From NCBI RefSeq assembly GCF_028737215.1, contig NZ_JAQZAM010000001.1, forward strand, positions 248,001 through 312,000: a DNA stretch of 64,000 nucleotides. Direction: 5' to 3'. This DNA is from Actinomycetospora chibensis. GTDB lineage: Bacteria; Actinomycetota; Actinomycetes; Mycobacteriales; Pseudonocardiaceae. A program made the translations under genes and the position numbers. A model generated the notes under the pieces. It was not told the origin of the DNA. It saw only the letters and a program-made list of their open reading frames with translations, and ran no database searches. This document shows, one piece after another, positions 1 through 46,217 of the stretch (the stretch's first letter is position 1; each line of letters starts with the position of its first letter).

Positions 1-1949
<1,949 letters not shown>

Positions 1950-16100: not shown

Positions 16101-17110
16101 CCACCCCGACCACGGACACCGTCCGGGCGGCGCTGCGCGACGCCGTCGCCACGTCACTGCGGGCCCCCTCGGAGCACAACGCGCAGCCGTGGCGATGGGT
16201 GCTCGCTTCCGACCACCTCGACCTCCACATCGACCGGGGACGTCGCCTGCCCTTCACCGACGAGCGGGGCCACGGCGTGCTCCTGGGCTGTGGGTGCGCC
16301 CTGCACCACCTGCGGGTGGCGCTCGCCGATCGCGGCTGGCACGCCCGGGTGCGCCACCAGCCCGAGAACCCCGACGAGCCCGAGGGACGCCCGCTGGCCC
16401 GGGTGCGGATCCGCCCCGCGGAGGGCGGCGTCGACAAGGACGTCCACCAGCAGGCCGCGGCCATCGACCGGCGGCACACGGACCGCCGCCGGTTCTCGAG
16501 CCGGTCGGTGCCCCCGGACGTCCTCGGTGCCCTCGGCGACGCGGCGCGGCCCTTCGGCGGGGTCCTGCACGTGGCGTTCGGCGCACACCGCGCCCTGTTC
16601 GCCGAGGCCATGCGCGAGGCCGCCGAGCGCCAGCCCGAGCAGGAGGGTTACGCCGCCGAGCTGTACCGGTGGACGCACCGCTACGCCGGGGCCCGGGACG
16701 GCATCCCGGCCGCAGCCCGGCTCGAGGGGCCACCGCCGTCCTACCGCGACCTGGTGCTGCGGTGGTTCCCCCGGGGGACGCTCCGCCAACCGCACGGGGG
16801 GATGGATCACGAGGACGCGTCGATGCTGGCGATCCTCACCGCGGTCGACGAGGAGCCCGTCTCCGTCCTGCGTGCCGGGGAGTCCCTCAGCGCGGTGCTG
16901 CTCGAGGCGACCGCGCTCGGCCTGGCCACGACGCCGATCACCCAGGTGCTCGAGGTGGCGGAGACCCGCGAGCGCCTCCGGCACCTGGTCGTCGGCGCCC
17001 ATCGCGCGCCCGTCGTGGCGTTGCGGATCGGCTGGCCCTCCGAGCGTGGCGACCCCCTGCACCCGACTCCGCGGCGGCCTCTCGATCACGTGCTGACCGA
17101 GGTGGACTGA
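16097..17110 (+). CDS. Acg-family nitroreductase
   Basis: 337 aa, the usual length of the Acg/Rv2032/Rv3131 family. The N-terminal APSEHNAQPWRW is the flavin-phosphate contact motif; a middle RRHTDRRRFSSR and the C-terminal VLEVAETRERLRHL with PVVALRIGWP are family landmarks. These flavoproteins are strongly DosR-induced in mycobacteria; Acg is proposed to sequester FMN rather than act as a classic nitroreductase. It starts within the stop of the 96-aa protein. The related fragment at 1-180 would be a second copy. Confidence 0.85.
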   Translation: MTTPTTDTVRAALRDAVATSLRAPSEHNAQPWRWVLASDHLDLHIDRGRRLPFTDERGHGVLLGCGCALHHLRVALADRGWHARVRHQPENPDEPEGRPLARVRIRPAEGGVDKDVHQQAAAIDRRHTDRRRFSSRSVPPDVLGALGDAARPFGGVLHVAFGAHRALFAEAMREAAERQPEQEGYAAELYRWTHRYAGARDGIPAAARLEGPPPSYRDLVLRWFPRGTLRQPHGGMDHEDASMLAILTAVDEEPVSVLRAGESLSAVLLEATALGLATTPITQVLEVAETRERLRHLVVGAHRAPVVALRIGWPSERGDPLHPTPRRPLDHVLTEVD

Positions 17111-27285: not shown

Positions 27286-28812
27286 TCACACCTCGACCAC
27301 GGTCCAGGACCCGTGTCGCCGCGGGGCGCGCACGGCCGTCACCGCGTTCGCCACGGAGTCCTCCGCAGGTCCCGACGTGTCGATCGTGGTCGCCTCCGGC
27401 CAGGGGTCCGCGTCGGCCGACATCACCGCGGCCACGAGCGGGGTGGCGTCGGAGGGCGACCCGCGGCGTGCGCGGATGCGCGCGTCCGCCAGGTCCCGGG
27501 GGGCCTCGCAGCGCAGGCCGACCAGGTCCGACGAGGTCCGTGCGGCGAGCGCCGCGGCCTGGTCCCGGCGCCGGGCGTCGGTCCACGAGGCGTCGAGCAC
27601 CACCGTCTCGCCCCGGCCGAGCAGGTCCTCGGCGCGGTGGAGCAGCGCCGCGTAGGTGGCGTCGGTGTGCTCGGGCCGGTAGAGACCGCCGCGGTACCCC
27701 GCGGCCGCGGGGTCGGTGGGGTTGAGCCCGGCCAGCTCCTTGCGCACCCGGTCGCTGGAGACGAGCACGGCCCCCATCCGGTCGGCGACACCGCCGGCGA
27801 CGGTCGTCTTCCCCGTCCCGGGGAGGCCGCCGACGAGCACGAGGCGGACCCGGGCCTCCTGCAGGTGGCGGTCGGCGAGGTCGAGCAGGGTGCGGGCCTC
27901 GGCGGCATCCGCGCCGCCCTGGTCGACGCGGATGCAGGTCACCGCCGCGCGGACGGCCGCCCGGTAGGCCACGAGGTGGTGGCTCAGTGCCACCGGGGCC
28001 GGATCGGCGGCGAACTCGGCGTAGAGCTCCAGGAACCGGGCGGCGGGTTCCGGCCCGCCGAGACGTTCGAGGTCCATGGCGAGGAACGCCGCGTCGTCGA
28101 GCCCGTCGACGTACCGCAGACGGTCGTCGAACTCGAGGCAGTCGAGCAGCGCCGGCCCCTCGGGCAGGCAGAACACGTCGTCGGCCAGCAGGTCCCCGTG
28201 GCCGTCGACGACGCGGTCCTCGGCACGTCGTGCCGCGAAGAGGGCCGCGCGGCCGTCGAGGAACGCGGTCGCCTCGCGGGCGACCCGGTCGACGACGTCG
28301 GGGGGCAGCAGCGCGCCCGCGTGACGGCGCAGGCCGTCGAGGACCCCCTCCCACCGGGCCCGCGCCGCCTCGCGCGAGCCCTCCCGGGCGATCTCCGGTC
28401 CCCGCGCCGCGACGCTGTGGAACCCCGCGAGCCGTCGGGCGACCGCCCGCAGGTGGTCCTCGACGGGCGCGCCCGCGCGCACGAGGGCTGCGAGGCTGCG
28501 GTCGGCCGGCATGCGGCGCATGGCCACCAGGTACTCCGCGGCCTCGCCGGACGGCCCCAGGACGGTCTCGAGCCCGAGGTAGGCCTCGGGGCTGAGACGC
28601 CGGTTGAGCGCGATCTCCCGCCGGCAGGCCTCCCGGCGGAGCTCGACGGTGGTGAAGTCGCAGAAGCCGAGGTCGACGGGCTTCTTCATCTTGTGCACGC
28701 GGTCGCCGAGGAACCACAGCACCGCGGTATGGGTCTCGCGCACACCGACGGCGAGCCCGTCGGCGTCGGGCGCGCGGCCACCGCGGGCGGCCGCGCCGAG
28801 CGGGTCGGTCAT
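27286..28812 (-). CDS. Rv2004c-like bifunctional kinase-domain protein
   Basis: 508 aa. N-terminal aminoglycoside-phosphotransferase-like half (about 30-320; [11 protein letters not shown] near the start, [14 protein letters not shown] catalytic loop, [15 protein letters not shown]) and C-terminal AAA_33/P-loop kinase (about 335-500; Walker [20 protein letters not shown]). Size and layout match M. tuberculosis Rv2004c (498 aa), a DosR-regulon protein whose substrate is unknown. It overlaps the stop of the USP upstream (ATGA) and is the last gene of a three-gene operon starting at 30616. Confidence 0.84.
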
Positions 28813-29729
28813 CGGACCACGCCCGCCCGGGTGCCGGGACCGTCGGCCCCGGCGCCGGCCAGGGGACCGAGGACGAGCACCGGGCACGGAGCGGCCAGGA
28901 GCAGCGACCGGGTCGTCGAGCCGAGGCCGACGAGGTCCTCGGCGTCGCGGCACCGGTGCGCGACGACCACCAGGTCCGCCCCGAGGGCCCGCTCCAGCAG
29001 CAGCCGGGCCGGTCGGTCCTCGGCGACCACGACGCTCGTCGGGACGTCCGGGAACCGGTCCTTCATCGCGCTGACGAGGTCCTCGATCCGGGCACGCGCG
29101 TCCGTCTCCTCGTCACCGGCGTCGGTGTCGCGGCGGCGGGCGATCCGCCCGGCGTCGTAGGTGACCTCGTCGACCGCGTGGACCACCTCGACCGGCTCCG
29201 CCGACATCTGCGCGATCCGCAGGGCATGCTCGAGCACGACCGTGGCGCCCGGGCCCTCGTCGAGCCCGACGACGATCACCGCCCGCGGGGGCACGTGGAC
29301 CGCGGAGGGCGCGCGGTCCTCGCCGAGCACCAGGACGGGACACGGCGCGATCGCGATCAGCTCCTCGGTGGTCCGGCCGGCCTCGCTGCCCAGGCGGCGG
29401 TGTCGGTCGCCGACGACCAGCAGAGACGAGGCTCCGCAGGCGGCCGCGAGCGCCGCCGCGGGGTCGCCGGTGGCGCAGGTCCGGCGGACCTCGACGTCAG
29501 GGGCGGTCCGGCTCAGGTAGCTCTCGGCCCGCTCGCCGGCGTCGCCGTACCACGGGGTGTCGGGAGTGGCCGGACCGTCGACGTGCACGACGCGGAGGGT
29601 GCGATCCCGCCGGTGGGCCTCGGCCACGGCGCGGTCGAGCACCCGGGTCCGCAACAGGCCGTCGCCGACGCCGACGACCACGGAGGGGAGGCGCGGGGCC
29701 ACCGTCGCCCCCATCGACGTCACGGTCAT
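28809..29729 (-). CDS. Tandem USP with degenerate ATP motifs
   Basis: 306 aa, two USP folds. The nucleotide motifs are altered in both halves (GDRHRRLGSEAGRTT and AHRCRDAEDLVGLGS), so at best one half might bind ATP. Strand pattern and the conserved APCPVLVLG ends are kept. Its start and the preceding stop share one base (TGATG). Middle gene of USP-USP-Rv2004c-like operon. Confidence 0.8.
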   Translation of the reverse strand: MTVTSMGATVAPRLPSVVVGVGDGLLRTRVLDRAVAEAHRRDRTLRVVHVDGPATPDTPWYGDAGERAESYLSRTAPDVEVRRTCATGDPAAALAAACGASSLLVVGDRHRRLGSEAGRTTEELIAIAPCPVLVLGEDRAPSAVHVPPRAVIVVGLDEGPGATVVLEHALRIAQMSAEPVEVVHAVDEVTYDAGRIARRRDTDAGDEETDARARIEDLVSAMKDRFPDVPTSVVVAEDRPARLLLERALGADLVVVAHRCRDAEDLVGLGSTTRSLLLAAPCPVLVLGPLAGAGADGPGTRAGVVR

Positions 29730-30616
29730 CAGGCCCCCTCACCGGCGTAGGTGCGCTCGGGGCGCGCCCACGTCGCGGCGGCCCGCGGAGGCAGCACCGC
29801 GACCGGGCAGGGCGCGAAGCGGACGACCTGCTGGCTCGTCGAGCCGAGCAGCGCACCCCCGACGGCCCCCCGCCCCCGCGAGCCGAGCGCCACCAGGCTC
29901 ACACCGGACCGGGCCACGTCGAGGAGCGCCTCGCTGGGCGCACCCCGCCGGAGCACCTCCTGGACGACCAGGTCCGGGTGTGTCGTGGCGATGCCGGCCC
30001 CGGCCTCGGCGAGGTACCGGCGCCGGGTCTCCTCGTCGGGACCGTCGAGGCGCGGCGTGACGCTCACGGTGACGAGCGTGCTGCGGGACCGGTCCGCGAC
30101 GTCGGCACCGAACGCGATCGCGCCCACCGCCTCGGCCGAGCCGTCGACGCCCACGAGCACCCCTCGCGAGGCCTCGTCCTCGGCAGGCTCCCAGTCCGGG
30201 GGCACCACGATCACGGGGCAGGGGGCGTGGCCCATCACATGGGCGATGGTGCGACCGACGCCCATGTCGGCGAGCCCGGTCCCGGGGCGGGCGCCGATCA
30301 CCAGGAGGCGCGCGCGGGAGGCCGTCGCGACGAGCGACGGCCCGGCGACGCCGTCCACCACCGAGAGTCGCACGGGCACCTCCGGCGCCGTGGCGACGGC
30401 GACCTGGTGGGCCTGCTCGAGCAGCGCGTGGGCGCGCCCGGACGGGCTGCGGAGCTCGTCGTGCGGACGCTCCGAGGGCGGCAGCACCTGGACCAGGTCG
30501 AGTGGCAGGTGACGACGCGCGGCCTCGCGCGCCGCCCACCGGACAGCGCCTGCGGTCGCGGGGCTGCCGTCCACGCCGACGAGCACGCCGGCCGGTGGCG
30601 TCGAGTGGTCGATCAT
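29729..30616 (-). CDS. Tandem universal stress protein
   Basis: 295 aa. Domain 1 (about 8-145) has a degenerate motif (GARPGTGLADMGVGRT); domain 2 (about 155-290) is canonical (GSRGRGAVGGALLGS). Closest in plan to Rv1996/Rv2005c-type DosR-regulon proteins. ATG 30616 follows GAGGAGG; the open frame extends 21 codons further without a ribosome site. A DosR-type box lies 114 bp upstream. Confidence 0.85.
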   Translation of the reverse strand: MIDHSTPPAGVLVGVDGSPATAGAVRWAAREAARRHLPLDLVQVLPPSERPHDELRSPSGRAHALLEQAHQVAVATAPEVPVRLSVVDGVAGPSLVATASRARLLVIGARPGTGLADMGVGRTIAHVMGHAPCPVIVVPPDWEPAEDEASRGVLVGVDGSAEAVGAIAFGADVADRSRSTLVTVSVTPRLDGPDEETRRRYLAEAGAGIATTHPDLVVQEVLRRGAPSEALLDVARSGVSLVALGSRGRGAVGGALLGSTSQQVVRFAPCPVAVLPPRAAATWARPERTYAGEGA

Positions 30617-30787: not shown

Positions 30788-30801
30788 GCGACCAACGGCC
30801 C
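30788..30801. promoter_or_regulatory. Candidate DosR-type box, GCGACCAACGGCCC
   Basis: One mismatch to GGGAC-CAAC-GGCCC, 79 bp upstream of the CBS gene at 30880; carried along in the duplication. Confidence 0.6.
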
Positions 30802-30879
30802 TGGGCGACCCACCACACCCGACCTCTACTCGACCTGCGCCCCGCGCGGGACGCACCACACCAGACCCAGGAGGTCGCT

Positions 30880-31329
30880 GTGAAGGTACGAGACATCATG
30901 AGCCACCCGGTGATCCGGATCGGACCCGACACCCCGGTCACCGACGCCGCAGCCCTGCTCGTCGAGCACGGCATCTCAGCACTGCCCGTCGTCGACGACA
31001 CCCAGCGCCTCATCGGCATCCTCAGCGAAGCCGACCTCGTCGCCGGCCGCATCCCCGCCCACGGCGACCAGCAACCCCCACCCACCACCTCCCGGGCGGG
31101 CCAACTCATGACCGACTCACCCATCACCCGCGAGCCCGACAGCGACGTCGCCGACGTCGTCCACACCATGCTCGACCACCGGCTCCGCGCCATCCCGATC
31201 GTCGACCACGGCACCCTGGTCGGCATCATCTCCCGCCGCGACGTCCTACGCTGCGTCGCCCAGGGCGAACTCACCTCCGCCGACGTCTGGCGCCACCGAT
31301 TCGGCCTCGTCGACCAGGACCGCGGCTAA
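30880..31329 (+). CDS. Hrp1-like CBS-pair protein, copy 1
   Basis: 149 aa, one CBS pair (VTDAAALLVEHGISALPVV with GILSEADLV; DSDVADVVHTMLDHRLRAIPIV with GIISRRDVL), opening with VRDIMSHPVIRI. Length and order match hypoxic response protein 1 (Rv2626c, 143 aa), although the paired cysteines of Hrp1 are not all present: only one Cys (LRCVAQ) is seen. GTG 30880 follows AGGAGG. The gene is markedly C-rich with A-ending codons (TCA, GCA, CGA) unlike its neighbours, a sign of separate origin. An identical copy is at 49636. Confidence 0.88.
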   Translation: MKVRDIMSHPVIRIGPDTPVTDAAALLVEHGISALPVVDDTQRLIGILSEADLVAGRIPAHGDQQPPPTTSRAGQLMTDSPITREPDSDVADVVHTMLDHRLRAIPIVDHGTLVGIISRRDVLRCVAQGELTSADVWRHRFGLVDQDRG

Positions 31330-31374
31330 GGACCCCGAACCGCTCAGGACCCCGAACAGCTCAGGACCCCGAAC
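31329..31374. repeat. Three 17-bp tandem units, AGGACCCCGAAC core
   Basis: AGGACCCCGAAC recurs at 31329, 31346 and 31363 directly after the CBS stop codon. Copy 2 has only two units (50085, 50102), so the array changed after duplication. Confidence 0.85.
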
Positions 31375-32040: not shown

Positions 32041-33009
32041 TCAGGTGGACGCGGCGTGCGCGTCCACCCCCGGCAGCGGATGCCGCGGACCCCCAGGTGG
32101 GGGCACGACCGCCACGGGGCACGGCGCGCGGTGCACCATCGCGCGGCTCACCGAGCCGAGCAGGAGTCCGGCGAACCCGCCGCGACCGCGGGAGCCGACC
32201 ACCAGCAGCCGCGCCCCGACCGCGTGCCGGAGCATCACCTTCGAGGGGTGCGAGCGCTCGACCACGGTCGAGACCTTCACGTCCGGGTACGCCGCGGACC
32301 GACCCGCGAGCTGCTCGGCGAGCACGCGGTGCTCGTCGTTCTCGATCGCCCCCCAGTCCAGGAGGGGCTCCAGCTCCGGACCGACGAGGGCGTCCCACCA
32401 GGTGTGCACCGCTACCAGCGGACACCCGGCCGCGTCCGCGGCCGCCACCGCGAAGTCGATGGCGGCGGTGCTGGCCGGGGAGCCGTCGACGCCGACGACC
32501 ACGGGCGCGGCGGGGTCGGAGGGCTCATCGCCCCGGACAACGACCACCGGTCCCGCGGCGTGGACGACCACGGTGGAGGCGACCGACCCCGCGAAGGGTT
32601 CGCCGAGCCCGCCCGCACCCCGCCCGCCCACCACCAGCAACCCGTCCCCGGCCCGATCGAGCAGTGCCGGCGCCGCCGGGCCGTCCACCAGCTCCTCGGT
32701 GATCGTCAGGTCGGGCGCCGCCCGGCGGGCCTCCGTCACCGCGCGGTCGGCCTCGCGGCGCGCCCGGTCGAGGACGTCCTGCTGATAGCGGCGCCAGATC
32801 GCCGCGTCGGCCACCAGCGAGGGGTCGACGCCGCCGTAGGCCAGCACGATCCGCAGGGCACGGCCCCTGGCCGCGGCCTCGCGTGAGGCCCAGCGGACGG
32901 CGCGCAGTGCCGTGTCCGAGCCGTCGACACCCACGACGACCGACGCCGGACCGGCAGGCCGGCCGCTCCGGGCCGACGGATCGTCGTCGGTCGTGGTCGT
33001 GCTCGTCAT
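32041..33009 (-). CDS. Tandem universal stress protein (Rv2623-like)
   Basis: 322 aa, two canonical ATP motifs: GGRGAGGLGEPFAGS and GSRGRGGFAGLLLGS. Marked family features are WRRYQQDVLDRA in domain 1 and VAVHTWWDAL in domain 2, as in Rv2623/TB31.7. A close paralogue is at 61783-62721. ATG 33009 follows AGGAGAG. A perfect-core DosR-type box lies 92 bp upstream. Confidence 0.9.
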   Translation of the reverse strand: MTSTTTTDDDPSARSGRPAGPASVVVGVDGSDTALRAVRWASREAAARGRALRIVLAYGGVDPSLVADAAIWRRYQQDVLDRARREADRAVTEARRAAPDLTITEELVDGPAAPALLDRAGDGLLVVGGRGAGGLGEPFAGSVASTVVVHAAGPVVVVRGDEPSDPAAPVVVGVDGSPASTAAIDFAVAAADAAGCPLVAVHTWWDALVGPELEPLLDWGAIENDEHRVLAEQLAGRSAAYPDVKVSTVVERSHPSKVMLRHAVGARLLVVGSRGRGGFAGLLLGSVSRAMVHRAPCPVAVVPPPGGPRHPLPGVDAHAAST

Positions 33010-34143: not shown

Positions 34144-34482
34144 TCACCGGCGCCCCGTCGTGGCGTGGCGCAGGATGGCGACCGCCCACAGCGCGGTGAT
34201 CACCACGACCAGGGCGATGAGCGCCTCGGCGCTCCCGGACACGAGGGCCAGTACCGCCGCACCCGCGGCGACGACCCCGAGAGCCGCCGGCGCGCGCACG
34301 GTCGCCGGCGTCACCCACTCGCCCCAGGCGCCGCCCACGACCGCCGCCGTGAGGCCGAGCGCGATCACGAGCATGGTCGCGGCGCGCACGCCGTCCGGCG
34401 ACCCGGTCGCCGCGGGTCCCAGCACACCGATCGCCACCGCGAGGGTGACCAGCAGCCCGGCCATGAGGTCGCGTCGACTCAT
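34144..34482 (-). CDS. Small four-helix membrane protein
   Basis: 112 aa, four hydrophobic segments (about 5-24, 33-51, 60-80, 85-105) joined by short loops; one conserved-looking GEWVTP loop. It is of the SPW-repeat/small integral membrane type by shape only; I do not recognise a family. ATG 34482 overlaps the stop of the HPF-like gene, so it is co-translated with it. A membrane role coupled to ribosome hibernation is unproven. Confidence 0.65.
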   Translation of the reverse strand: MSRRDLMAGLLVTLAVAIGVLGPAATGSPDGVRAATMLVIALGLTAAVVGGAWGEWVTPATVRAPAALGVVAAGAAVLALVSGSAEALIALVVVITALWAVAILRHATTGRR

Positions 34483-35312
34483 GGCCCGGACCCCTCCCGC
34501 CCGGGGCCCACCTCCACGTCCACCAGGACGGCGCGACCGCGCCGGTCGGGGTGCACGACCCGCGCGCGCCCGTCCTCCGGATCGACGAAGAACAGGAACG
34601 GCAGCCCCGCCAGGCGCAGGTGCTCGACCGCGCTCTCCGGGCTCAGGACCGGGGCCGGCCGGCTGCTGCGGGTGATGTGGGCCGGGCGCGTCGGGCTCGG
34701 CGCGGACCCGTCGTCGAGCGCGATGCGGAAGCCGGTCGGGCCCCCGCGGTACGCCACGGCGCGGCGCCCCGTGGCGCGCTCGACGAAGAGATGGAAGGCC
34801 TCGTCACGGGCCTCCATGATGGCGACGGCGTCGGACGCGCAGGTGGGCACCGCCTGCACCACGTCGTGGCGCTCGATCAGGGCCTCGGTGTCCTGCGCCT
34901 GAGATGGGTCCGCGAGGTGCCTCGGCCGCCGGCGGGCGTGCTCGTCGCCGACCTGCCGGCGCAGCCGGTCGACGAGCAGGTCGACCGCCTCACGGGCGTC
35001 GGCGGCGACGACGTGGGCGTGGAGACGACGGCCGGCGAGGTCGACGTGCGCGCTCGCGACCACCGGCCGCTCGCGGGCCGGGTCGCCGTGGCGCACGACC
35101 CGGATCCGGGCGGGGCCGAGCGGGTCGACGCCGTGGTCGAGGGTCTGGACGACCTTCTCGCGGACGTACCCGACGAGATCCGTCGCGATGGCTCCGCGGA
35201 GCTCGACGACGGGCGGAGGGACGCGGGGCGCGGCGGTCGAGCCGGTCGTGGAGGTCGAGCCGGTCGTGGAGGTCGTGGAGGTCGTGGAGGTCGTGGGGAG
35301 ACTCGAGGTCAT
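34479..35312 (-). CDS. HPF/Rv0079-like ribosome hibernation factor
   Basis: 277 aa. After a Thr/Ser/Gly low-complexity leader (about 1-30) comes an S30AE-like domain (about 35-130: VELRGAIATDLVGYVREKV, RPVVASAHVDLAGRRLHAHV, DAREAVDLLVDRLRRQV) and a C-terminal dimerisation-like domain (about 165-275: DEAFHLFVERATGRRAVAYR, GLPFLFFVDPEDGRARVVH). This is the long-HPF plan and matches Rv0079 (DATIN), the DosR-regulon translation inhibitor. It would dimerise or inactivate ribosomes. ATG 35312 has a poor ribosome site; the leader arises from a 9-bp DNA repeat, so a later start is possible. A box lies 37 bp upstream. Confidence 0.82.
   Translation of the reverse strand: MTSSLPTTSTTSTTSTTGSTSTTGSTAAPRVPPPVVELRGAIATDLVGYVREKVVQTLDHGVDPLGPARIRVVRHGDPARERPVVASAHVDLAGRRLHAHVVAADAREAVDLLVDRLRRQVGDEHARRRPRHLADPSQAQDTEALIERHDVVQAVPTCASDAVAIMEARDEAFHLFVERATGRRAVAYRGGPTGFRIALDDGSAPSPTRPAHITRSSRPAPVLSPESAVEHLRLAGLPFLFFVDPEDGRARVVHPDRRGRAVLVDVEVGPGREGSGP
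35218..35300. repeat. 9-bp tandem repeat GTCGTGGAG inside the HPF-like gene
   Basis: Repeated GTCGTGGAG/GTCGAGCCG units encode the Thr-Ser/Thr-Gly leader of the hibernation factor. Pure units at the upstream end indicate recent slippage. Confidence 0.8.
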
Positions 35313-36523: not shown

Positions 36524-37042
36524 ATGCACGAGCTGGCGCGTGTGGTCCGCGAACTGATCGTCGCGTCCGACAGCTATCGCCGGACCATGGCGGGCGGCAT
36601 CGATCTGAGCACCACCGAGGCCGCCGTGCTCGGCCACCTCCTGCACGACGGTCCGCAGACACCCTCGGTGATCGCTGCGCGCGCCGGGCTCACCCCGGCC
36701 GCGGGCACCTCACTGCTCGACCGGCTCGCGCGGTACGGGCTCGTCGAGCGCCGGCCCCACCCACGGGACCGTCGGAGCCTGCTCGTCCATCTCACGCGCC
36801 GGGGGCACGCCGCCATCACCGCGATGTCCGCCATGTTCTCCGAGGACCTCCTTCAGGCCCTCGAGCGCTCCGATCCCCGTCTGGTCGAGGACCCCGAGCT
36901 CCGTCGCGCGGTCACGCACCTGGTCGGCGCGATGGCCGCCTCCCTGCGCGCGCGGGCCGGGGACGCCGCGGGGGTCCGCGCCGCGATCCTGGGCGAGATG
37001 TCGGCCTCGCACGAGACCGCCGACGGCGAGCACGGCCGCTGA
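36524..37042 (+). CDS. MarR-family transcriptional regulator
   Basis: 172 aa. Winged-helix core (about 25-105): TTEAAVLGHLLHDGPQTPSVIAARAGLTPAAGTSLLDRLARYGLVERRPHPRDRRS is the classic helix-turn-helix plus wing (landmarks LTPAAGTSLLDRL and RRPHPRDRRSLLV). C-terminal helices dimerise. The ligand is unknown. ATG 36524 follows GAGAGTAGGG; an inverted repeat sits at the promoter. It is the only DNA-binding regulator in the window and converges on the PRTase. Confidence 0.87.
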   Translation: MHELARVVRELIVASDSYRRTMAGGIDLSTTEAAVLGHLLHDGPQTPSVIAARAGLTPAAGTSLLDRLARYGLVERRPHPRDRRSLLVHLTRRGHAAITAMSAMFSEDLLQALERSDPRLVEDPELRRAVTHLVGAMAASLRARAGDAAGVRAAILGEMSASHETADGEHGR

Positions 37043-37056
37043 GGCCCGGGACCGGG

Positions 37057-37704
37057 TCACACCGGCTCGTCGTGCACCGCGCGGCGCAGCAGCTCGACCA
37101 TCTCCTCGTCCGGGAGCTGGCGGAAGTCGGCGTAGGATCCACCGACGCCGAAGAACTCCTCCGGGGTCTCGAGGCACACCAGTTCGTCGACCTCGTCGCG
37201 CACGCGGGGCGCGGCGTCCGGCGCGCACACCGGCGCGGCGAGCACGACCCGCGCCGCGCCCAGTTCCCGGGCCACCCGGCACGCGGCGCGGGCGGTCGCG
37301 CCGGTCGCGATCCCGTCGTCGACCAGCAGCGCCGTGCGCCCCACCAGGGACAGGCGGTCCCGCCCGGGACGGAATCGGCGGGCACGACGATCGATCTCGT
37401 CGCGCGCCCCCCGCTCGATCTCGGCGAGCTCGGCCTTGCCCACCTTCGCCCGGCGCACGAGCGACCGGTTCAGCACCAGGACGCCGCCCTCCCCGACCGC
37501 ACCCATCGCGAGTTCGGGCTGGAGCGGCATCCCGAGCTTGCGCACGAGGATCACGTCGAGGGGGGCGTCGAGCGCCGCGGCGACCTCTGCCGCCACCGGG
37601 AACCCGCCGCGTGGCAGCGCGAGGACCACGAGGTCCTCCCCCCGCAGGTGCTGCAGCCGGCGGGCGAGCTGCCGGCCGGCTTCGGCACGATCACTGAAAG
37701 GCAC
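37057..37704 (-). CDS. Phosphoribosyltransferase-domain protein
   Basis: 215 aa. PRPP-binding loop VDDGIATGATARAA, N-terminal LPRGGFPVAAEVAAALDAPLDVILVRKLG (LPRGG pyrophosphate loop, VRKLG) and C-terminal DFRQLPDEEMVELLRRA. Same family as Rv0571c and the N-terminal part of Rv2030c of the DosR regulon; substrate unknown. GTG 37704 overlaps the avidin-like gene by 14 bp, making a two-gene operon. A paralogue is at 59536-60321. Confidence 0.85.
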   Translation of the reverse strand: MPFSDRAEAGRQLARRLQHLRGEDLVVLALPRGGFPVAAEVAAALDAPLDVILVRKLGMPLQPELAMGAVGEGGVLVLNRSLVRRAKVGKAELAEIERGARDEIDRRARRFRPGRDRLSLVGRTALLVDDGIATGATARAACRVARELGAARVVLAAPVCAPDAAPRVRDEVDELVCLETPEEFFGVGGSYADFRQLPDEEMVELLRRAVHDEPV

Positions 37705-38095
37705 GGGTCCGCCCCCCGTCGGGCGTCGCGGCGACCGGCGCGGCGACGCGGGAGAAGACGTCCTGCCCCATCCGGGTGGAGCACCACCCCGTGTGCTCGG
37801 GCCCCTCGGCGGTCAGCAGCCATGTGGCGTGCAGGAGGTCGGCCTCGGGGTCGTAGCGACCGCACCAGGTCGTGACCGAGTGCTGGTTGCCCGAGGCGTT
37901 GTTCCACACCACCACCCAGCCCACCGCGGCGTGCGCGTCCGCGGGCGGTGTCGCGTCGAAGCGGCCCGCGAGGGCGTAGCGCCCGGTGACGTGCCCGACG
38001 TTCGACTCGTAGTCGCCGTTCAACAGCCCGTCCGGCGTGGCGGCCAGGGTCATCGTGGACCCGAGCTCGTTGCGCCAGGTGCCTTCCGGTCCCAT
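37691..38095 (-). CDS. Avidin/streptavidin-family biotin-binding protein
   Basis: 134 aa. Aligns with streptavidin over its full barrel: [51 protein letters not shown]. Every biotin-contact residue I could place is kept: Asn9, Ser13, Tyr29, Ser31, Trp64, Ser73, Thr75, Trp77, Trp92, Trp104 (the intersubunit Trp120 of streptavidin) and Asp112 (Asp128). Unlike streptavidin and avidin, no signal peptide is present: the protein begins MGPEGTW. ATG 38095 follows GAGGAGG, fixing the start. Two cysteines (78, 105) are unusual. It is operonic with a PRTase and shares an upstream dyad with the SPFH gene. Cytosolic biotin sequestration is inference. Confidence 0.9.
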
Positions 38096-38218
38096 GTGCT
38101 CCTCCTCGGTGGCCGACGGCGGTGTACGGGGCCGCGTACGGCCGCGTACGGCGGTCTCCGACGGCGACCGTGGACGGCCTCGCGGGCCGGCCCCAGGTGC
38201 GATCGGCACCGGACGGGC

Positions 38219-38232
38219 GGGCCTTCCGGCCC
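38219..38232. promoter_or_regulatory. Candidate DosR-type dyad, GGGCCTTCCGGCCC
   Basis: GGGCC-TTCC-GGCCC, arms perfectly palindromic but with C in place of the A of GGGAC. It lies 124 bp from the avidin-like start and 96 bp from the SPFH start. Confidence 0.4.
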
Positions 38233-38327
38233 GTCGAGGTGGTCGTCGAGGCCCTGTACGTCCCGGGCGCGGCACGCGCCCACTGGGCCCGGGCGGGTCC
38301 GCGCGGGCCCCGACGGGAGGTGCAGTG

Positions 38328-39101
38328 ATGAGCTTTCTCGGCGTCGCCGTGGTCCGGCAGTACGAGCGCGGGGTGGTGTTCCGCTTCGGACGCCTGCGCG
38401 CGACCAGGGAACCGGGCCTCCGATTCATGATCCCGCTCGTGGACCGCATGCGGAAGGTGTCGCTGCGGACGGTGACCATGCCGATCCCGTCCCAGCAGGT
38501 GATCACCCGCGACAACGTGTCGATCAACGTGGCCGCGGTCGCCTACTTCCGCCGGGTCGACCCGGTGGCCTGCATCATCGCGATCGAGAACGTGCAGACC
38601 GCCATCGGCCAGATCGCCCAGACCACGGTGCGCAACGTCGTCGGACGGTCCTCGCTGGACGACGTGCTGTCGGACACCGAGACCCTCAACGAGTCGATCA
38701 AGGAGATCCTGGACCGGACCACCGAGCGCTGGGGCGTGCTCGTCGAGCTCGTCGAGCTCAAGGACATCGAGCTGCCCCAGTCGATGCAGCGGGCCATGGC
38801 CCGCGAGGCCGAGGCGGAGCGGGAGAAGCGCGGCAAGGTCATCGCCGCCGAAGGGGAGGCGCTCAGCGCCGGCAAGCTCGCCGAGGCCGCCGACGTCCTC
38901 GCCGCGCACCCGATCTCCCTGCAGCTGCGCAACCTGCAGGTCCTCGGTGAGATCGCCATCGAGCGCAACTCCACCATCGTCTTCCCCGCCCAGTTCCTCG
39001 ACAGCGTCCGGGACCTGAGCGCGTTCGTGGCGCGCGAGGGGGGCCCCAGCGCCGACGCGCCCGCCGTCAACGGCCGGACGGCGGCGGGGGCGATGTCCTG
39101 A
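38328..39101 (+). CDS. SPFH/band-7 (slipin-stomatin) protein
   Basis: 257 aa. Band-7 domain from about 5 to 165 ([55 protein letters not shown]) and a charged coiled-coil (about 165-200, [21 protein letters not shown]) as in bacterial slipins. The usual N-terminal membrane helix is missing: only MSFLGVAV precedes the domain, so attachment is peripheral or via a partner. ATG 38328 follows GGGAGG. Confidence 0.87.
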
Positions 39102-40113: not shown

Positions 40114-41502
40114 ATGGACGACATCCCGATGGCGGCCGAGGACGGCCTGTGGCTGCGGATCGACCGCGCGACGAACGTGCTCGGCATCGTCTCGGTCCTG
40201 TGGACCGCCACCCCCGTCGAGCCCGTCGCCCTGCGCCGGGTCCTCTCCGAGCGCGTCGTCGACCCACACCCGGTCTTCCGGCACCGCCCCGTGCTCGACG
40301 GCGGGTGGTTGCCCGCGGGCACGTGGGAGGAGGACCCCGACTTCGACCTCGACCGCCACCTGCGTGTGGAGTCGCTGCCCCCCGGCCGGCCGGACGCGGC
40401 CCTGCAGGAGCGGGTCGGGCAGCTGCGCAGCACCCCGCTCGACCTCTCCCGGCCGCCCTGGTCGGTCCACCTCCTGCAGGGGCACGGCGAGGGCAGCGCC
40501 GTCGTGGTGCGCGCCCACCACGCCCTCGCCGACGGCGTGCGCATGATCCGGCTGCTGCTCGCCCTGCTCGATCCCCTGCCCGGTGCGTCCGCGGACGCGC
40601 GTCCCGTGGCCACCCACGGCATGGACGACGTCGTGGCGGACCTGCTCGACGGCCTGCGGCACCCCTGGCGCTCCCTGGGCGCGGGCCTGCGACTGACGGT
40701 GTCGGCGCTCAACACGGCCCTCGACACGGTCGAGATCCTCGGCTGGGTCAACCCACGCACGGCGTGGACGGGGCCGCCCGGTCGGGACAAGACGGCGGCC
40801 TGGAGCGAGGAGATCCCGCTCGACCTGCTCGCCGGACTGGCCCACGAGGACGGCGCGACCGTCAACGACGTGTGCCTGGCGCTGCTCGGCGGCGCCGTCG
40901 CCCGCGCCCACGAGTCCGAGCTCAACGGCCCGACCCCGTCGAACCTGGCCTGGATGGTGCCGGTGAACCTCGACCCCCTCGAGGCCGGGCCACCGGAGCG
41001 GCTGGGCAACCACTTCGCGCTCGTCCTCGTGGTCCTGCCGCTGCGGGGTCCGTTCCGTGCCCGCCTGGCCGAGGTGCACGCCCGCGTCGAGCGCATCCGG
41101 CACAGCTGGGAGCCGGCCCTCACCCACGGGCTCCAGCAGCTCATCGGCCGGGCTCCCGACCCGGTCGCGGGCGCGGTGAGCGACCACCTCGCGAACAAGG
41201 CGATCGGTGTCGTGACCAACGTGCCCGGGCCCCGCACGCGGATGGCGCTGGCCGGCGCGGAGGTCACCGGCATCGTCGGCTGGGCACCGTGCAGCGCCGA
41301 CCAGGTGCTCACCGCCTGCATCGTCAGCTACGCCGGCGGGGTCCGGATCGGCTTCGGCGTCGACCGCTGCCGCGTCGGCGACGCCCGCGTCCTGGTGAGC
41401 GCTCTCCGCGAGGAGCTGGCCGCCGTCGTCCGCGACCACCGCCCGACCCACCGGAGCCCGGCCACGGGCTCCGCCACCACCCCTGCGAGGAGCACCCGAT
41501 GA
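40114..41502 (+). CDS. Wax ester synthase/diacylglycerol acyltransferase 1
   Basis: 462 aa, the normal length for bifunctional WS/DGAT. Active-site motif HHALADG with His135, His136 and Asp140; NPRTAWTGPPG, VNDVCLALLGGA and the C-terminal NVPGPRTRMALAGAEV are family landmarks. It makes triacylglycerol or wax ester from acyl-CoA; M. tuberculosis Tgs1 (Rv3130c) is the DosR-regulon counterpart. ATG 40114 has a weak ribosome site. The stop overlaps the ligase start (ATGA). Confidence 0.88.
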   Translation: MDDIPMAAEDGLWLRIDRATNVLGIVSVLWTATPVEPVALRRVLSERVVDPHPVFRHRPVLDGGWLPAGTWEEDPDFDLDRHLRVESLPPGRPDAALQERVGQLRSTPLDLSRPPWSVHLLQGHGEGSAVVVRAHHALADGVRMIRLLLALLDPLPGASADARPVATHGMDDVVADLLDGLRHPWRSLGAGLRLTVSALNTALDTVEILGWVNPRTAWTGPPGRDKTAAWSEEIPLDLLAGLAHEDGATVNDVCLALLGGAVARAHESELNGPTPSNLAWMVPVNLDPLEAGPPERLGNHFALVLVVLPLRGPFRARLAEVHARVERIRHSWEPALTHGLQQLIGRAPDPVAGAVSDHLANKAIGVVTNVPGPRTRMALAGAEVTGIVGWAPCSADQVLTACIVSYAGGVRIGFGVDRCRVGDARVLVSALREELAAVVRDHRPTHRSPATGSATTPARSTR

Positions 41503-43001
41503 GCCTCAACCTGGCCGTCGTGCTGCGCGAGTCCGCGCGGCGCCACCCCCACCGGACCGCGATCATCGCCGACGAGCACCGGATGAGCTGGAGCGAGCTC
41601 GACGCCGCCGCGGACCGCCTGGCCGAGGGCCTGCGCCGGCAGGGCCTGCGGACCGGCGACGCGGTGGCGCTCCAGCTGCCGAACGTGCCGCAGTTCGCGG
41701 TCGCCTGGTTCGGCATCCTCAAGGCCGGCCTCGTCGCCGTGCCGATGAACGTGCTGTTCAAGGAGAGCGAGGTCGCCTACATCCTCGCCGATTCCGCCGC
41801 CCGGGCGCTGCTGACCTGGCAGGGCTGCGCGGAGGCCGCGGCCAAGGGCGCCGCGGAGGCCGGCGTCGACTCCGTGTTCGTGCTCGGTGAAGGACCGGGC
41901 CACCCGTTCGGCGAGCTCCTGGCCCACGCGCCCGACGACCCCGACGGCGTGCTCGCGCCCTGCGACCCCGGTGACGTGGCCGCCGTGGTCTACACCGCGG
42001 GGACGACCGGACGGCCCAAGGGCGCCGAGCTGACGCACTTCCAGCTGTTCATGAACGCCGACACGCCGGGACGCGTGTTCGGCATCCGGTCCGACGACGT
42101 GGTCCTCGTGGCGCTGCCGCTCTTCCACGTCTTCGCGCTCTCCAGCCAGCTCGACGTCTGCACGCGCTTCGGGGCCACGATGACGCTGGTCCCCCGGTTC
42201 GAGCCGGGCCGGGTCCTCGAGGTGATGGAGCGCGACCAGGTCACGGTGTTCGAGGGCGTCCCGACGATGTACGTCGCGCTGCTCGAGCACCCGGACCGCA
42301 CCACCCGCGACCTGCGGGCGCTGCGCGTCGGCGTCTCGGGGGGCGCCCCTCTGCCCGCCGAGGTGCTGGACTCCGTCGAGCGCGCCCTCGGTCTCGTCGT
42401 GCTCGAGGGCTACGGGCTCTCCGAGACCGCGTCGACGACGACGTTCAACATCAGCGCCGAGGAACGGCGCGTCTACAGCGTCGGCAAGCCCATCTACGGG
42501 GTGGACCTGCAGATCCGCGATCCCGAAGGACACCGGCTCCCGCGCGGCCGCGACCACGTCGGCGAGATCGTCGTCCGCGGGGTCAACGTCATGCGGGGCT
42601 ACCGCGGCCGGCCGGAGGCGACCGCCGAGGCGCTCGTCGACGGCTGGTTCCACACCGGCGACCTGGGCTACCTGGACGAGGACGGGTTCCTGTTCGTCGT
42701 CGGCCGGACCTCCGACCTCATCATCCGCGGCGGCTACAACGTCTATCCCCGCGAGGTCGAGGACGTCCTCTACACCCACCCCGCCGTCCGCGACGCCGCC
42801 GTGATCGGGGTCCCGGACCGGCGGCTCGGGCAGGAGGTCCACGCGGTCGTCGCGCTGCGCCCCGGCAGCACGGCCGACGAGCACGAGCTGATCTCCTACG
42901 TCCGGGAGCGGGTGGCGTCCTACAAGTACCCCCGGTCCGTCGAGTTCCGCGAGGAGCTGCCCGTCGGCGCCAGCGGCAAGATCCTCAAGCGGGCGCTGTG
43001 A
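41499..43001 (+). CDS. AMP-forming fatty acyl-CoA ligase (FadD type)
   Basis: 500 aa. P-loop YTAGTTGRPKGAE, A5 motif EGYGLSETAS, A7 YLDEDGFLFVVGRTSDLIIRGGYNVYP (landmarks GDLGYLDEDG and GGYNVYPREVE) and the C-terminal catalytic lysine in ASGKILKR. It activates fatty acids to acyl-CoA, the substrate of the two flanking acyltransferases, with which it overlaps at both ends (ATGA, GTGA). Confidence 0.9.
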   Translation: MSLNLAVVLRESARRHPHRTAIIADEHRMSWSELDAAADRLAEGLRRQGLRTGDAVALQLPNVPQFAVAWFGILKAGLVAVPMNVLFKESEVAYILADSAARALLTWQGCAEAAAKGAAEAGVDSVFVLGEGPGHPFGELLAHAPDDPDGVLAPCDPGDVAAVVYTAGTTGRPKGAELTHFQLFMNADTPGRVFGIRSDDVVLVALPLFHVFALSSQLDVCTRFGATMTLVPRFEPGRVLEVMERDQVTVFEGVPTMYVALLEHPDRTTRDLRALRVGVSGGAPLPAEVLDSVERALGLVVLEGYGLSETASTTTFNISAEERRVYSVGKPIYGVDLQIRDPEGHRLPRGRDHVGEIVVRGVNVMRGYRGRPEATAEALVDGWFHTGDLGYLDEDGFLFVVGRTSDLIIRGGYNVYPREVEDVLYTHPAVRDAAVIGVPDRRLGQEVHAVVALRPGSTADEHELISYVRERVASYKYPRSVEFREELPVGASGKILKRAL

Positions 43002-44383
43002 ACGCCGTCGCGATGAGCCCGCTCGACGCGGCCTTCCTCGAGCTCGAGGACGCCGAGCCGGAGGTCTCCATGGCGATCGCCTCGATCGCGGTCTTCGCCG
43101 GCCCGGTGCCGGGCTCCGACGAGTTCGCCGCGCACCTCGCCGGGCGGCTCCCGCTCATCCCCCGCTACCGGCAGAAGGTCCGGCGGGTGCCGCTCGACCT
43201 GGGCCCACCGGTGTGGGTCGACGATCCGCACTTCGTCCTCGAGCACCACCTGGTCCGGGTCGCCCTGCCCGCACCCGGCGGTGACGCCCAGCTGTGCGCG
43301 CTGATGGGGCGGGTCATGGCCACGCGCCTCGACCGTGACCGCCCGCTGTGGCGGTACTGGATCGTCGAGGGTCTGGCCGGGGACCGGTGGGCGCTGATCT
43401 CCCAGGTCCACCACTGCATGGTCGACGGGGTGTCGGGCACCGATCTCTACCGGGACGTCCTCGACCCCGGGCCGGTCCCCCGGCCCCCGGCCCCACCGGC
43501 GGCGGCCCCCGAACGGGAGCCGTCGAGGGCCGAGCTCATGCTGCTCGGCGCGCGGGGACTGCTCGCGCTCCCGGTGTCGGCGGTGCGCGGCGCCGGCGCG
43601 CTGCTGGCCCGTCCCCGCGAGGGCGGGCAGCGGCTCGCCGCGCTGGTCCGGGGTGGTACCGCCCTGCTCGGGAGCCTGCGGGCCGGGGCCCCGTCGTCGC
43701 TGACCGGGTCGCGCCACCGGCCCCGCCACTACGCCGTCGCCCGCGGCCGGGTCGCCGACGTCCGGGCGATCCGGCACCGGCACGGCGGGACCTTCAACGA
43801 CGTGGTGCTCGCCGCGGTCACCGCGGGCTTCCGCGCGCTGCTGCTCGCCCGTGGTGAGGAGCCGACGCCCGATCTGGTGCGCACCCTGGTCCCGGTCTCG
43901 GTGCGGGCGCGGGGGGACGAGGGCGAGCGGGGCAACCAGGTCTCGCTGCTGCTACCGCGCCTGCCCGTGCACGTCGCCGACCCCCGCGAACGCCTCGCGC
44001 GGACCGTCGCGGAGCTGGAGTCGTGCAAGGCGGCGCACGAGGCCGAGGCGGGTGCGCTGCTGACCGAGCTCGCGCGCCTGGAGCCCTATCCGCTCGTCGC
44101 CCGGGGCGTGCGGTGGGCCTCCCGGTCGGACCAGCGCGCCGTCGTCACCGTGACCACCGACGTGCCGGGCCCGCGCGAGACGCTCTACGGACTCGGCCGC
44201 GAGCTCCTCGAGATCATCCCCTACGTCCCGATCGGCAGCACGGCCCAGATCGGGGTGTCGATCATGAGCTATCGCGACGGCCTGGCCATCGGGCTCACCG
44301 GGGACGAGTCCGTGGAGGACCTCGACGTGCTCGCCCGCGGGATCGAGTCGGAACTGGCACTGCTCTCGGGCGACCACGCCTGA
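42998..44383 (+). CDS. Wax ester synthase/diacylglycerol acyltransferase 2
   Basis: 461 aa. Motif HHCMVDG with His138, His139 and Asp143; opening MSPLDAAFLELED is the classic Tgs start, and DVPGPRETLYGLGREL the C-terminal family motif. It differs strongly from acyltransferase 1, so the pair probably has different acyl preferences. GTG 42998 overlaps the ligase stop; a second ATG (MSPLD) five codons on is also possible. Converges on the flavodoxin. Confidence 0.89.
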   Translation: MNAVAMSPLDAAFLELEDAEPEVSMAIASIAVFAGPVPGSDEFAAHLAGRLPLIPRYRQKVRRVPLDLGPPVWVDDPHFVLEHHLVRVALPAPGGDAQLCALMGRVMATRLDRDRPLWRYWIVEGLAGDRWALISQVHHCMVDGVSGTDLYRDVLDPGPVPRPPAPPAAAPEREPSRAELMLLGARGLLALPVSAVRGAGALLARPREGGQRLAALVRGGTALLGSLRAGAPSSLTGSRHRPRHYAVARGRVADVRAIRHRHGGTFNDVVLAAVTAGFRALLLARGEEPTPDLVRTLVPVSVRARGDEGERGNQVSLLLPRLPVHVADPRERLARTVAELESCKAAHEAEAGALLTELARLEPYPLVARGVRWASRSDQRAVVTVTTDVPGPRETLYGLGRELLEIIPYVPIGSTAQIGVSIMSYRDGLAIGLTGDESVEDLDVLARGIESELALLSGDHA

Positions 44384-44416: not shown

Positions 44417-44944
44417 TCACCCGGCCGGCCGGGCCGGCAGCGCGGTCAGTACCCGGGCCACGCCGTCGCCCCACGCGTCGATGCGGTCCCAGTCGCGGTA
44501 GTCCCCCGCGCCGTGGCTGGTGGCGAACATGAGCAGACGGCCGAGCAGCGACAGGTGCTCGTCGCGGACCACCCCGCTCACGACGAGGTGGTCGCGGAAG
44601 GACAGGCGGTCGGTGAACTCGGCGACGAGGGCCGCCGGCTGCAGGCCGGCCAGCAGGGTCAGCGGGAAACGCAGCGCGGCCGGCATCCCGACGCTGAACA
44701 GCCACACCGGCTTGGCCGCGAGCTCGGGCGCGTGCTCGGCGACGAAGGCGCGCGCCTCGGGGAGCCAGCGCTGGTCGTGCACCGCGCTGCCGAGGACGTA
44801 GGCGTCGTACCGCCCCGGATCGACGACGCGGGCGAGCTCCGACACGTCGGTGTCGAGCCCGTGTCCCCCCAGCCGCGCACCCAGGTGCTCGGCGATCTCG
44901 CGGGTGGAACCGTGGGCACTGGAGTACCCGACCAGGACCTTCAC
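44417..44944 (-). CDS. Flavodoxin-domain protein (protoporphyrinogen oxidase-like)
   Basis: 175 aa. VGYSSAHGSTREIAEHLG is an FMN phosphate loop; DAYVLGSAVHDQRWLPEARAFV and SVGMPAALRFP follow the HemG-type flavodoxin pattern. It could be a menaquinone-dependent flavoprotein, but function is open. GTG 44944 overlaps the DUF302 stop; last gene of USP-DUF302-flavodoxin. Confidence 0.8.
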   Translation of the reverse strand: MKVLVGYSSAHGSTREIAEHLGARLGGHGLDTDVSELARVVDPGRYDAYVLGSAVHDQRWLPEARAFVAEHAPELAAKPVWLFSVGMPAALRFPLTLLAGLQPAALVAEFTDRLSFRDHLVVSGVVRDEHLSLLGRLLMFATSHGAGDYRDWDRIDAWGDGVARVLTALPARPAG

Positions 44945-45366
44945 GACCGTGCCCCCTCGTCCTGGAGCGACCGCGGGGCGGGCACCTGGTCGCGGGCGAG
45001 AGCGTCCCGGACGCGCGCGAGGCGGGCGCCCGCCTCGTCGGCGATCGGGGCCAGCGCCTCGACGCCGCTCATCGCCACCATCGCCTGCGGATCGAGGATC
45101 TCCACGACGCTCTCCGCGCCGTCGGTGCGCACCGTCACCGTGCACGGCAGCAGGAGGCCGACGGAGCGGTCGATCTCGAGCGCCCGGTGGGCCAGGGCCG
45201 GGTTGCAGGCGCCGAGGATGACGTAGTCCTCGAACTCGACACCGAGCTTCGCAGCCATGGTCGCCCGCACGTCGATCTCGGTGAGCACGCCGAAGCCCTC
45301 GGCCGCCAGCGCCTCCCGCACGCGGGCGACGGTGTCGGCGTAGGGCAGTCCGAGCCGGATCTCCAT
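44941..45366 (-). CDS. DUF302-family protein
   Basis: 141 aa. Pattern DTVARVREALAAEGFGVLTEIDV, YVILGACNPALAHRALEIDRSVGLLLPCTVTV (landmarks LGACNPALAHRAL and LLLPCTVTV) identifies DUF302, a small alpha-beta domain of unknown function often found with metal or redox genes. Two conserved cysteines are present. ATG 45366 follows GAGGAGAGG, 15 bp after the USP gene. Confidence 0.85.
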   Translation of the reverse strand: MEIRLGLPYADTVARVREALAAEGFGVLTEIDVRATMAAKLGVEFEDYVILGACNPALAHRALEIDRSVGLLLPCTVTVRTDGAESVVEILDPQAMVAMSGVEALAPIADEAGARLARVRDALARDQVPAPRSLQDEGARS

Positions 45367-45380: not shown

Positions 45381-46217
45381 TCACGACGCGGGTGGCGGGA
45401 CGACCGCCACCGGACACTGCGCCCGCCGCAGCACCGACTGGCCGACGGACCCGAGGACCCGCTCGAGGCCCTGGCGCCGGTGGGAGCCGACCACGACCAG
45501 CCGGGCGTCGTCGGAGCGCGCGACGAGCGTCGGGACCGGCCGGCCCTCCGGCAGGACGCGGAGGACCTCCACGTCGGGGAACTTGCTGCTCCAGCCCGCA
45601 AGCCGCTCGCCGAGGAGCTCGGCCTCCGGGAGGTCGGGCATCCCCTCCGCCGCGGACGGCGAGACGTCGTCGTCCAGCATCGATCCCCACTCGGGGTCCT
45701 GGAGGTCCTGCCACACGTGGACGGCGACCAGGGGCACGCCCTCGCGGTCGGCGGCCGCGAAGGCGTAGCCGACCGCCGCCTCTCCGGACGGGGTGCCGTC
45801 GATGCCGACGACGACCGGATCGTCGGGCGAGGGAACGCGGGTGCCCCGCACGACCACGGTGGGGCACGTCGCACGGGCTGCCACCGCCGCGGAGACGGTG
45901 CCGAGGACCAGGCTTCCGATCGTGCCGCGGCCGCGGCTCCCGACGACGAGGAGCTCGGCATCGCGGCCCGCGTCCAGGAGGGCCTCGACGGGGTCGCCGC
46001 GCCGCACGTCGGCGGACACCACGAGCTCGGGGACGGCGCGCCGGGCCTCCTCGGCGGCGTCGCTCGCCAGGAACACCGACGACACGCCGTGCGCGGGCAG
46101 CACCGCCAGGACCTGCAACGGTCGCCGGCGCCGCGCGGCTTCCACGGTGGCCCAGGCGACGGCGCGGGCGGCTCCCGGCGATCCGTCGACGCCGACCACG
46201 ACCGGTCGCCCGGTCAC
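45381..46217 (-). CDS. Tandem universal stress protein
   Basis: 278 aa. Domain 1 motif GSRGRGTIGSLVLGT is canonical; domain 2 (GSHRRQGLERVLGS) lacks the second glycine and is shortened, as in many actinobacterial two-domain USPs. VAVHVWQDLQDPEW marks domain 2. GTG 46217 is the first codon with a purine-rich stretch before it (GGGGGG). First gene of the operon with DUF302 and flavodoxin. Confidence 0.85.
   Translation of the reverse strand: MTGRPVVVGVDGSPGAARAVAWATVEAARRRRPLQVLAVLPAHGVSSVFLASDAAEEARRAVPELVVSADVRRGDPVEALLDAGRDAELLVVGSRGRGTIGSLVLGTVSAAVAARATCPTVVVRGTRVPSPDDPVVVGIDGTPSGEAAVGYAFAAADREGVPLVAVHVWQDLQDPEWGSMLDDDVSPSAAEGMPDLPEAELLGERLAGWSSKFPDVEVLRVLPEGRPVPTLVARSDDARLVVVGSHRRQGLERVLGSVGQSVLRRAQCPVAVVPPPAS

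Follow-up and report, generated by a model that had tools for sequence, protein, structure and literature searches.

In the avidin survey by Laitinen and colleagues, about 50% of the putative bacterial avidins are reported to have a signal peptide (PMC8033661), and the statement in the initial annotation that known avidins are mostly secreted is, because of that proportion, too strong for bacteria. The survey describes no clear association of avidins with distinctive processes and a frequent presence of mobile elements. It also presents the known eukaryotic avidins as secreted, contrary to tamavidins 1 and 2 of Pleurotus, which a second source describes as cytoplasmic (PMC6238071). Among the matches listed from the open-licence literature, we found no report of an avidin in a hypoxia regulon or of a link between avidins and dormancy. 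The locus described here, in a 64-kb stretch of DNA from Actinomycetospora chibensis analyzed as a whole (the window), combines a predicted leaderless avidin with a gene island of the DosR/OsdR type.

The avidin gene (P0002) runs from 38095 to 37691 on the minus strand and encodes 134 amino acids; the initial annotation had placed it correctly at 37691..38095, and only the minus-strand reading of that interval is an avidin, the plus-strand reading being none. Its assignment to the avidin/streptavidin family was upheld by a match to Pfam Avidin (PF01382; E 1.6e-21, 77.3 bits vs. a cut-off of 24), which is unique in the host's 6.18-Mb genome; the family was matched in 0 of 14 control genomes. 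Streptavidin chains rank best in a PDB sequence search (best single-domain chain, 2.8e-29), and the AlphaFold model, with eight strands and a mean pLDDT of 82.6, has a streptavidin as its top Foldseek match (E 3.2e-10). All 11 biotin contacts named beforehand sit at their assigned positions (N9, S13, Y29, S31, W64, S73, T75, W77, W92, W104, and D112), as aligned with the native leader-bearing streptavidin-type protein L072. The avidins of four sister species, A. lutea, A. cinnamomea, A. straminea, and A. lemnae (loci L036 to L039), keep 10 of the 11, with Ala at position 27 (S27A), a replacement expected to lower biotin affinity. Position 121 presumably lines the biotin entrance. Against the NCBIfam streptavidin equivalog NF047623, the window protein reached 108.7 bits, below the curated cut-off of 300; although an avidin, it is therefore no streptavidin by this strict definition. 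The dN/dS values (0.23 to 0.31 against the sister species and 0.09 to 0.15 among the sisters) indicate that the protein is under purifying selection and exclude a chance frame. By profile, contact residues, and predicted fold, the window protein is an avidin with a complete biotin site, and biotin binding itself is predicted.

The gene starts directly at the barrel behind a firm ribosome-binding site, as had been proposed: GAGGAGGAG (38099..38107, minus strand) lies 4 to 12 bases before the ATG and is conserved across the four sister species. All five avidin-carrying members of the genus are leaderless, and all five proteins begin with Met-Gly-Pro, the Met standing four codons before the GxWxN motif. 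The open frame continues upstream of the window ATG, where it is rich in arginine and proline and holds no hydrophobic stretch before the barrel. A missed upstream signal peptide is ruled out by this upstream frame in the window and is also countered in L009/L051, L043, L049, and L067 by a stop codon at most 16 codons before GxWxN. The lack of a signal peptide noted initially therefore stands, and because it is absent, we infer that the window avidin is cytosolic.

Leaders elsewhere were judged by hydrophobicity (best 12-residue Kyte-Doolittle mean) rather than by a trained predictor. On this measure, 9 of 34 avidin loci bear a leader, with values of 2.38 to 3.07 (L027, L029, L030, L068, and L071 to L075). 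The other 25, reduced to 24 by one duplicate (L070), are leaderless; their highest value, 1.92 in L044, belongs to a stretch that precedes that locus's own start codon. None of the 20 loci in a later Streptomycetaceae set (18 of them new) exceeded 1.20. With 42 distinct leaderless loci examined and 9 leader-bearing ones of the streptavidin type, avidins that lack a leader are common in Actinobacteria. Cysteines occur in 0 of 9 leader-bearing mature rows and 12 of 24 leaderless rows, and all five Actinomycetospora proteins have two or more. The pattern fits a reducing compartment, short of proof. Two of these residues, Cys78 and Cys105, directly follow the equivalents of streptavidin Trp92 and Trp120 and are kept in 5/5 Actinomycetospora avidins; placed there, they could make the biotin grip redox-dependent in this genus.

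In a tree of 33 rows, which leaves out the 18 later Streptomycetaceae loci, the nine leader-bearing rows group together (99/98), and a separate branch on a long stem unites the Actinomycetospora rows (100/100). Within the genus, 5 of 18 genomes carry the gene and 13 gave no match (three of the 18 are less than 90% complete); the function is therefore dispensable. Some avidin-family match was found in 18 of 390 genomes of the family and, in samples that overlap, in 4 of 394 class-wide, 10 of 392 of the genus Streptomyces, and 18 of 394 Streptomycetaceae. Five Streptomycetaceae genomes (G1233, G1190, G1193, G1221, and G1295) hold two or three avidin-family matches each, all in genus g194, which we infer includes Kitasatospora. 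The leaderless avidin L076 (G614) has Arg at the positions of streptavidin Trp92 and Trp75 and, because of these replacements, may have lost biotin binding.

It is important to consider how these loci were delimited. Gene starts and neighbors in the relatives are the output of a purpose-made gene caller, and the regions of L041, L050, and L068 are shorter than 15 kb. The counts leave out L070 (contig of L043), L167 (contig of L047), L168 (contig of L042), L046 (without marker scoring), and five tiny random contigs (L128 to L132). Partial or divergent family members (L015 to L018 with regions L032 to L035, L053, L054, L063/L077, L163, and L165) were excluded.

The gene content around the window avidin justifies the term dormancy cluster used in the initial annotation. 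A DevS/DosS-type sensor kinase of GAF-GAF-HisKA_3 architecture (165..1886, minus strand) was recognized by profile and by structure, its first GAF domain matching the DevS heme domain (2y8h, E 5.8e-50). A DevR homologue is encoded 37 kb away from the avidin gene on the same contig (C11:322825-323469) and is the best of 59 own-genome matches to the regulator of L051, with E 6e-88 to solved DevR. The sensor and regulator that define membership of a DosR/OsdR-type system are thus a DevS-type kinase within the window and, by sequence, a DevR homologue nearby. An Acg family FMN-binding oxidoreductase of the Rv3131 type (16097..17110, plus strand) scored 282.3 bits with NF047509 (cut-off, 199). Four universal stress proteins, each with two Usp domains, are encoded on the minus strand: 28809..29729 (by profile, searched over 28809-29669), 32041..33009 (by profile), and 29729..30616 and 45381..46217 (by our own HMM). 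Altogether, 18 stretches of the 64-kb window were scored as Usp, a number that includes fragments of single domains; 2 of 20 stretches of 19 to 20 kb elsewhere in the same genome had one each.

Profiles also identified an S30AE/HPF-type ribosome hibernation factor (34479..35312, minus strand, start uncertain), a MarR-family regulator (36524..37042, plus strand), two WS/DGAT acyltransferases (40114..41502 and 42998..44383, both plus strand), a weakly HemG-like Flavodoxin_5 protein (44417..44944, minus strand), and a DUF302 protein (44941..45366, minus strand). Cytochrome bd subunit I, a P-type ATPase, and Hsp20 are encoded farther off in the window. A CBS-pair protein (30880..31329, plus strand, by profile) has an identical copy at 49636-50085. 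The repeat is a 595-bp block (30763-31357 and 49519-50113) with zero differences, comprising the whole CBS-pair gene (450/450 bases) and 117 bp upstream, and is, as read from the sequence, a recent duplication or gene conversion within the island.

Divergent from the avidin lies an SPFH/Band 7 gene (38328..39101, plus strand, by profile), relatives of which also occur at L036 and L067. On the other side is a phosphoribosyltransferase (PRTase) gene (PF00156, E 1.8e-15; 37057..37704, minus strand), the first 14 bp of which, if its uncertain start is right, overlap the end of the avidin gene. The pairing with a PRTase put forward initially holds for the window, L036, and L037, on differing sides, and fails in L038 and L039; because of those two loci, the PRTase is a neighbor and not an obligate partner, adjoining the avidin in only three of the five genus loci. 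As for phage defence, 10 window proteins, including the avidin and the PRTase, gave no PADLOC match apart from a marginal hit between the MarR-type regulator and MkoB (18.1 bits).

The 232-bp intergenic region between the divergent avidin and SPFH genes contains two palindromes, CGGGCCTTCCGGCCCG (38218..38233) and the weaker AGGTGCGATCGGCACC (38195..38210). They were scored with a weight matrix made from the predicted OsdR sites of Streptomyces coelicolor given in the OsdR paper (PMC5069765), which themselves score 11.3 to 18.5. The first palindrome reached 9.4 (8.8 with the base composition of the window), below the range of the matrix-building sites, and the second 6.9. Boxes of at least 8.9 occur in 9 of 30 promoter-bearing intergenic regions of the window and in 21 of 39 of the four sister islands, vs. 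12 of 256 in random Actinomycetospora DNA and 4 of 161 in that of Streptomyces. The island is clearly enriched in boxes.

For individual avidins, transcription-unit heads were chosen by hand from gene order, and all five Actinomycetospora heads so chosen carry a box of at least 8.9. The sisters scored 9.2 (L036), 13.5 and 12.0 (L037, in a 1.2-kb gap), 13.5 and 8.9 (L038), and 8.9 and 7.6 (L039). Outside the genus, L067 (10.7), L066 (10.9), and L076 (12.6) were above this value. The heads of L041, L043, L044, L045, L049, and L069 scored at most 6.0, and those of L051 (7.8), L023, L031, L040, L042, L047, and L048 were also below 8.9. Additionally, we applied a uniform rule of 400 bp upstream, counted from a point 12 bases ahead of the barrel motif or match start, which is off by a few codons at loci without the usual barrel motif. 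By this rule, a box of at least 8.9 precedes 6 of 18 leaderless avidins with dormancy markers, 2 of 24 without them (P = 0.056), and 1 of 9 leader-bearing avidins; random upstream windows gave 41 of 641 and 19 of 331. The leader-bearing avidin L075 scored 14.8. This score and the P value of the uniform rule led us to reject the box as clear proof of control, and the window avidin's own box is a suggestive DosR/OsdR-like candidate site. The highest score among the avidin upstream regions scanned, 20.4, was found at a single locus, where 94 bp separate the end of a near-perfect OsdR consensus (GGGGCCGATCGGCCCT, L178:9787-9802) from the downstream ATG of a leaderless avidin.

The neighborhoods of other avidins were compared with a set of seven marker types taken from the window alone (Usp, CBS, PRTase, SPFH, DUF302, flavodoxin, and S30AE; marker set A) within a radius of 7.5 kb. 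Genes for pyruvate phosphate dikinase (PPDK), PFK, aldolase, PFL, RtcB, and Rv2632c-like proteins were spotted later and stand outside these counts. In the first sample, at least one marker lies near 13 of 22 distinct leaderless loci (13 of 23 including the duplicate) and at least two near 8 of 22. The leader-bearing loci had a marker in 0 of 9 cases and the comparison regions of six genomes in 2 of 55, none of them with two. For at least one marker, P was 4e-7 against the comparison regions and 0.004 against the leader group, both calculated on 23 rows and both overstating independence because the rows are related. In the second, validation sample, 4 of 18 leaderless loci had a marker; the 14 without one all belong to g194. 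The search for avidins beside USP- and PRTase-type genes in related genomes, suggested at the outset, thus returned markers near 17 of 40 scored leaderless loci when both samples are pooled, next to 0 of 9 leader-bearing loci and 2 of 55 random regions.

The marker-positive loci come from Actinomycetospora, two separate Streptomyces branches, three more Streptomycetaceae genera, a Pseudonocardiaceae MAG (L051), and a Gemmatimonadota MAG (L050), the avidin of which keeps only 8 of 11 contacts. The arrangements vary. In L076, USP, PPDK, and avidin genes are co-directional, with pyruvate formate-lyase and phosphofructokinase before them on the other strand. PPDK, phosphofructokinase, and pyruvate formate-lyase are biotin independent and suit anaerobic carbon flow. 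The neighbors in L067 (phosphofructokinase, a DeoC/LacD-family aldolase, CBS, DUF302, PRTase, and SPFH) are much like the window set. A gene with the S30AE C-terminal domain alone (L173:9234-10382) overlaps the avidin ATG by four bases at its end (ATGA), and Hsp20 follows. L051 has the order flavodoxin-avidin, with a DevR-type regulator and USPs close by, and a relative of that regulator (62.9% identity) lies about 4.7 kb from the avidin of L170. No marker was found within 7.5 kb of L042 and L047 (g194) or of Actinosynnema L040, and the eight distinct scored loci of the five multi-avidin genomes gave no dormancy marker. A universal dormancy linkage is ruled out by these loci and by the 4 of 18 positives of the validation sample.

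Another setting was found in Actinokineospora, in L048 (A. enzanensis, 9342-11711) and in L031 of the same genus (5850-8250). There, a leaderless avidin lies between a BioN-like gene of the CbiQ family and bioY, followed by an ABC ATPase, and the bioN end overlaps the avidin start as ATGA in both loci; bioB adjoins the L048 operon. This operon is possibly an avidin-assisted biotin uptake system, and its gene order BioN-avidin-BioY-ATPase links leaderless avidins with the intracellular handling of biotin. Consequently, since leaderless avidins also occur in biotin-uptake operons and in marker-free contexts, dormancy is one of their settings and not their definition.

Our preferred reading, held tentatively and a little short of evenly balanced, is that the window protein is a true, cytosolic avidin acting as an intracellular biotin sponge, which in Actinomycetospora forms part of a hypoxia island of the DosR/OsdR type, where a fall in oxygen probably induces it. 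The avidin would bind biotin tightly within the cytosol, and its induction as oxygen falls would be due to the DevR homologue. Free biotin, and perhaps also biotin on carboxyl-carrier domains, would then be held, which would starve BirA and lower carboxylase capacity during dormancy. The host genome encodes BioB and a single BirA ligase, gave no match to BioY, and contains eight biotin carboxylase C domains, the possible targets. Biotin held in this way would also be kept in the cell for regrowth, the same activity suiting either a sink or a store. Because avidins are classical inactivators of biotin enzymes, the biotin sink proposed in the initial annotation is plausible, and the interpretation given there is partly supported. 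A more specific version, in which a DosR/OsdR-controlled intracellular avidin seizes free, perhaps also carrier-bound, biotin and so switches off carboxylases through their cofactor as the cell enters dormancy, we consider doubtful.

The two alternatives that survive best are both unlikely in our estimate. In one, unloaded cytosolic avidin is a poison that starves amoebae or nematodes of biotin once they ingest the cell, as do the cytoplasmic mushroom tamavidins, which are reported to be toxic to Caenorhabditis elegans, an Acanthamoeba, and Drosophila (PMC6238071). The patchy presence in 5 of 18 genus genomes suits a defence gene, resting cells would benefit, and the avidin survey associates two defence-pathway GO terms with avidins (PMC8033661). 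However, an avidin placed in a biotin-import operon, as in the relatives, would be loaded, blunting the poison, and in a host that makes its own biotin the sites would fill unless expression were high.

The other, to which we give no greater credence, is a biotin store that protects the vitamin through dormancy and releases it at regrowth, without effect on carboxylases. The bioN-avidin-bioY-ATPase operon of Actinokineospora points in this direction, and S27A in the four sister species may permit release; however, the 11 of 11 contacts of the window protein would predict very slow release. Furthermore, Actinomycetospora synthesizes biotin (BioB is over the cut-off in 17 of 18 genus genomes) and BioY was matched in just 1 of the 18, one without an avidin, which argues against a store.

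Immunity to, or carriage of, a biotin-like metabolite is very improbable. It would resemble the secreted streptavidins, one of which is reported to bind acidomycin and shield its producer (PMC13336041), and the leader-bearing avidin L027 adjoins bioB; among the annotated neighbors of the window avidin, however, where part of the window genes was searched, no biotin-antimetabolite cluster was recognized. At L027 itself (6999-8640), the signal-peptide avidin of a Pseudonocardiaceae genome stands beside bioB (Pfam) with acyl-carrier and ligase-like genes, as judged by eye, and this may be a biotin-antimetabolite cluster. Least probable of all is a passenger gene moving between hot genomic places, with dormancy islands merely rich in accessory genes: patchy distribution, immediate neighbors that differ between L036/L037 and L038/L039, and the more than 10% of avidin genes that the survey places within mobile elements (PMC8033661) speak for it; against it stand the absence of all 9 leader-bearing avidins from islands of this kind, the translational coupling with the S30AE domain gene (L173), the USP-PPDK-avidin order (L076), and the recurrence of the dormancy link in several separate tree lineages.

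With respect to the native role of avidins, a large leaderless group is now tied to a known hypoxia regulon in several separate lineages and, in another lineage, to a biotin importer; both links offer a direct and inexpensive way to test for a function inside the cell. Should the biotin sponge act on carboxylases, resting cells would have a new means of halting fatty-acid synthesis and anaplerosis. A carboxylase switch at the cofactor level would, to our knowledge, be the first case of an avidin put to native, endogenous regulatory use.

Compared with the known systems, the window avidin shares with Streptomyces streptavidin the fold, all biotin contacts, and 41 to 46% identity among the Foldseek alignments listed. 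It differs in having no signal peptide, in falling below the NF047623 cut-off, in its dormancy island, and in the tree, where the streptavidin-type leader-bearing rows occupy the other branch (99/98). The tamavidins resemble it as cytoplasmic avidins but are fungal and serve fruiting-body defence, a comparison made by description. We know of no hypoxia regulon for tamavidins. With the BioMNY ECF transporter operon the likeness is the leaderless avidin that adds a fourth gene to such an operon in Actinokineospora; the window genome, in contrast, has no BioY match, and its avidin stands in another setting. The mycobacterial DosR/DevR and S. coelicolor OsdR regulons match the island in DevS, DevR, USP, CBS, the Acg oxidoreductase, Hsp20, and the type of box. 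The difference is the avidin itself: the main text of the paper on the OsdR regulon uses neither "avidin" nor "biotin" at any point (PMC5069765), and an avidin would be a new member of the regulon.
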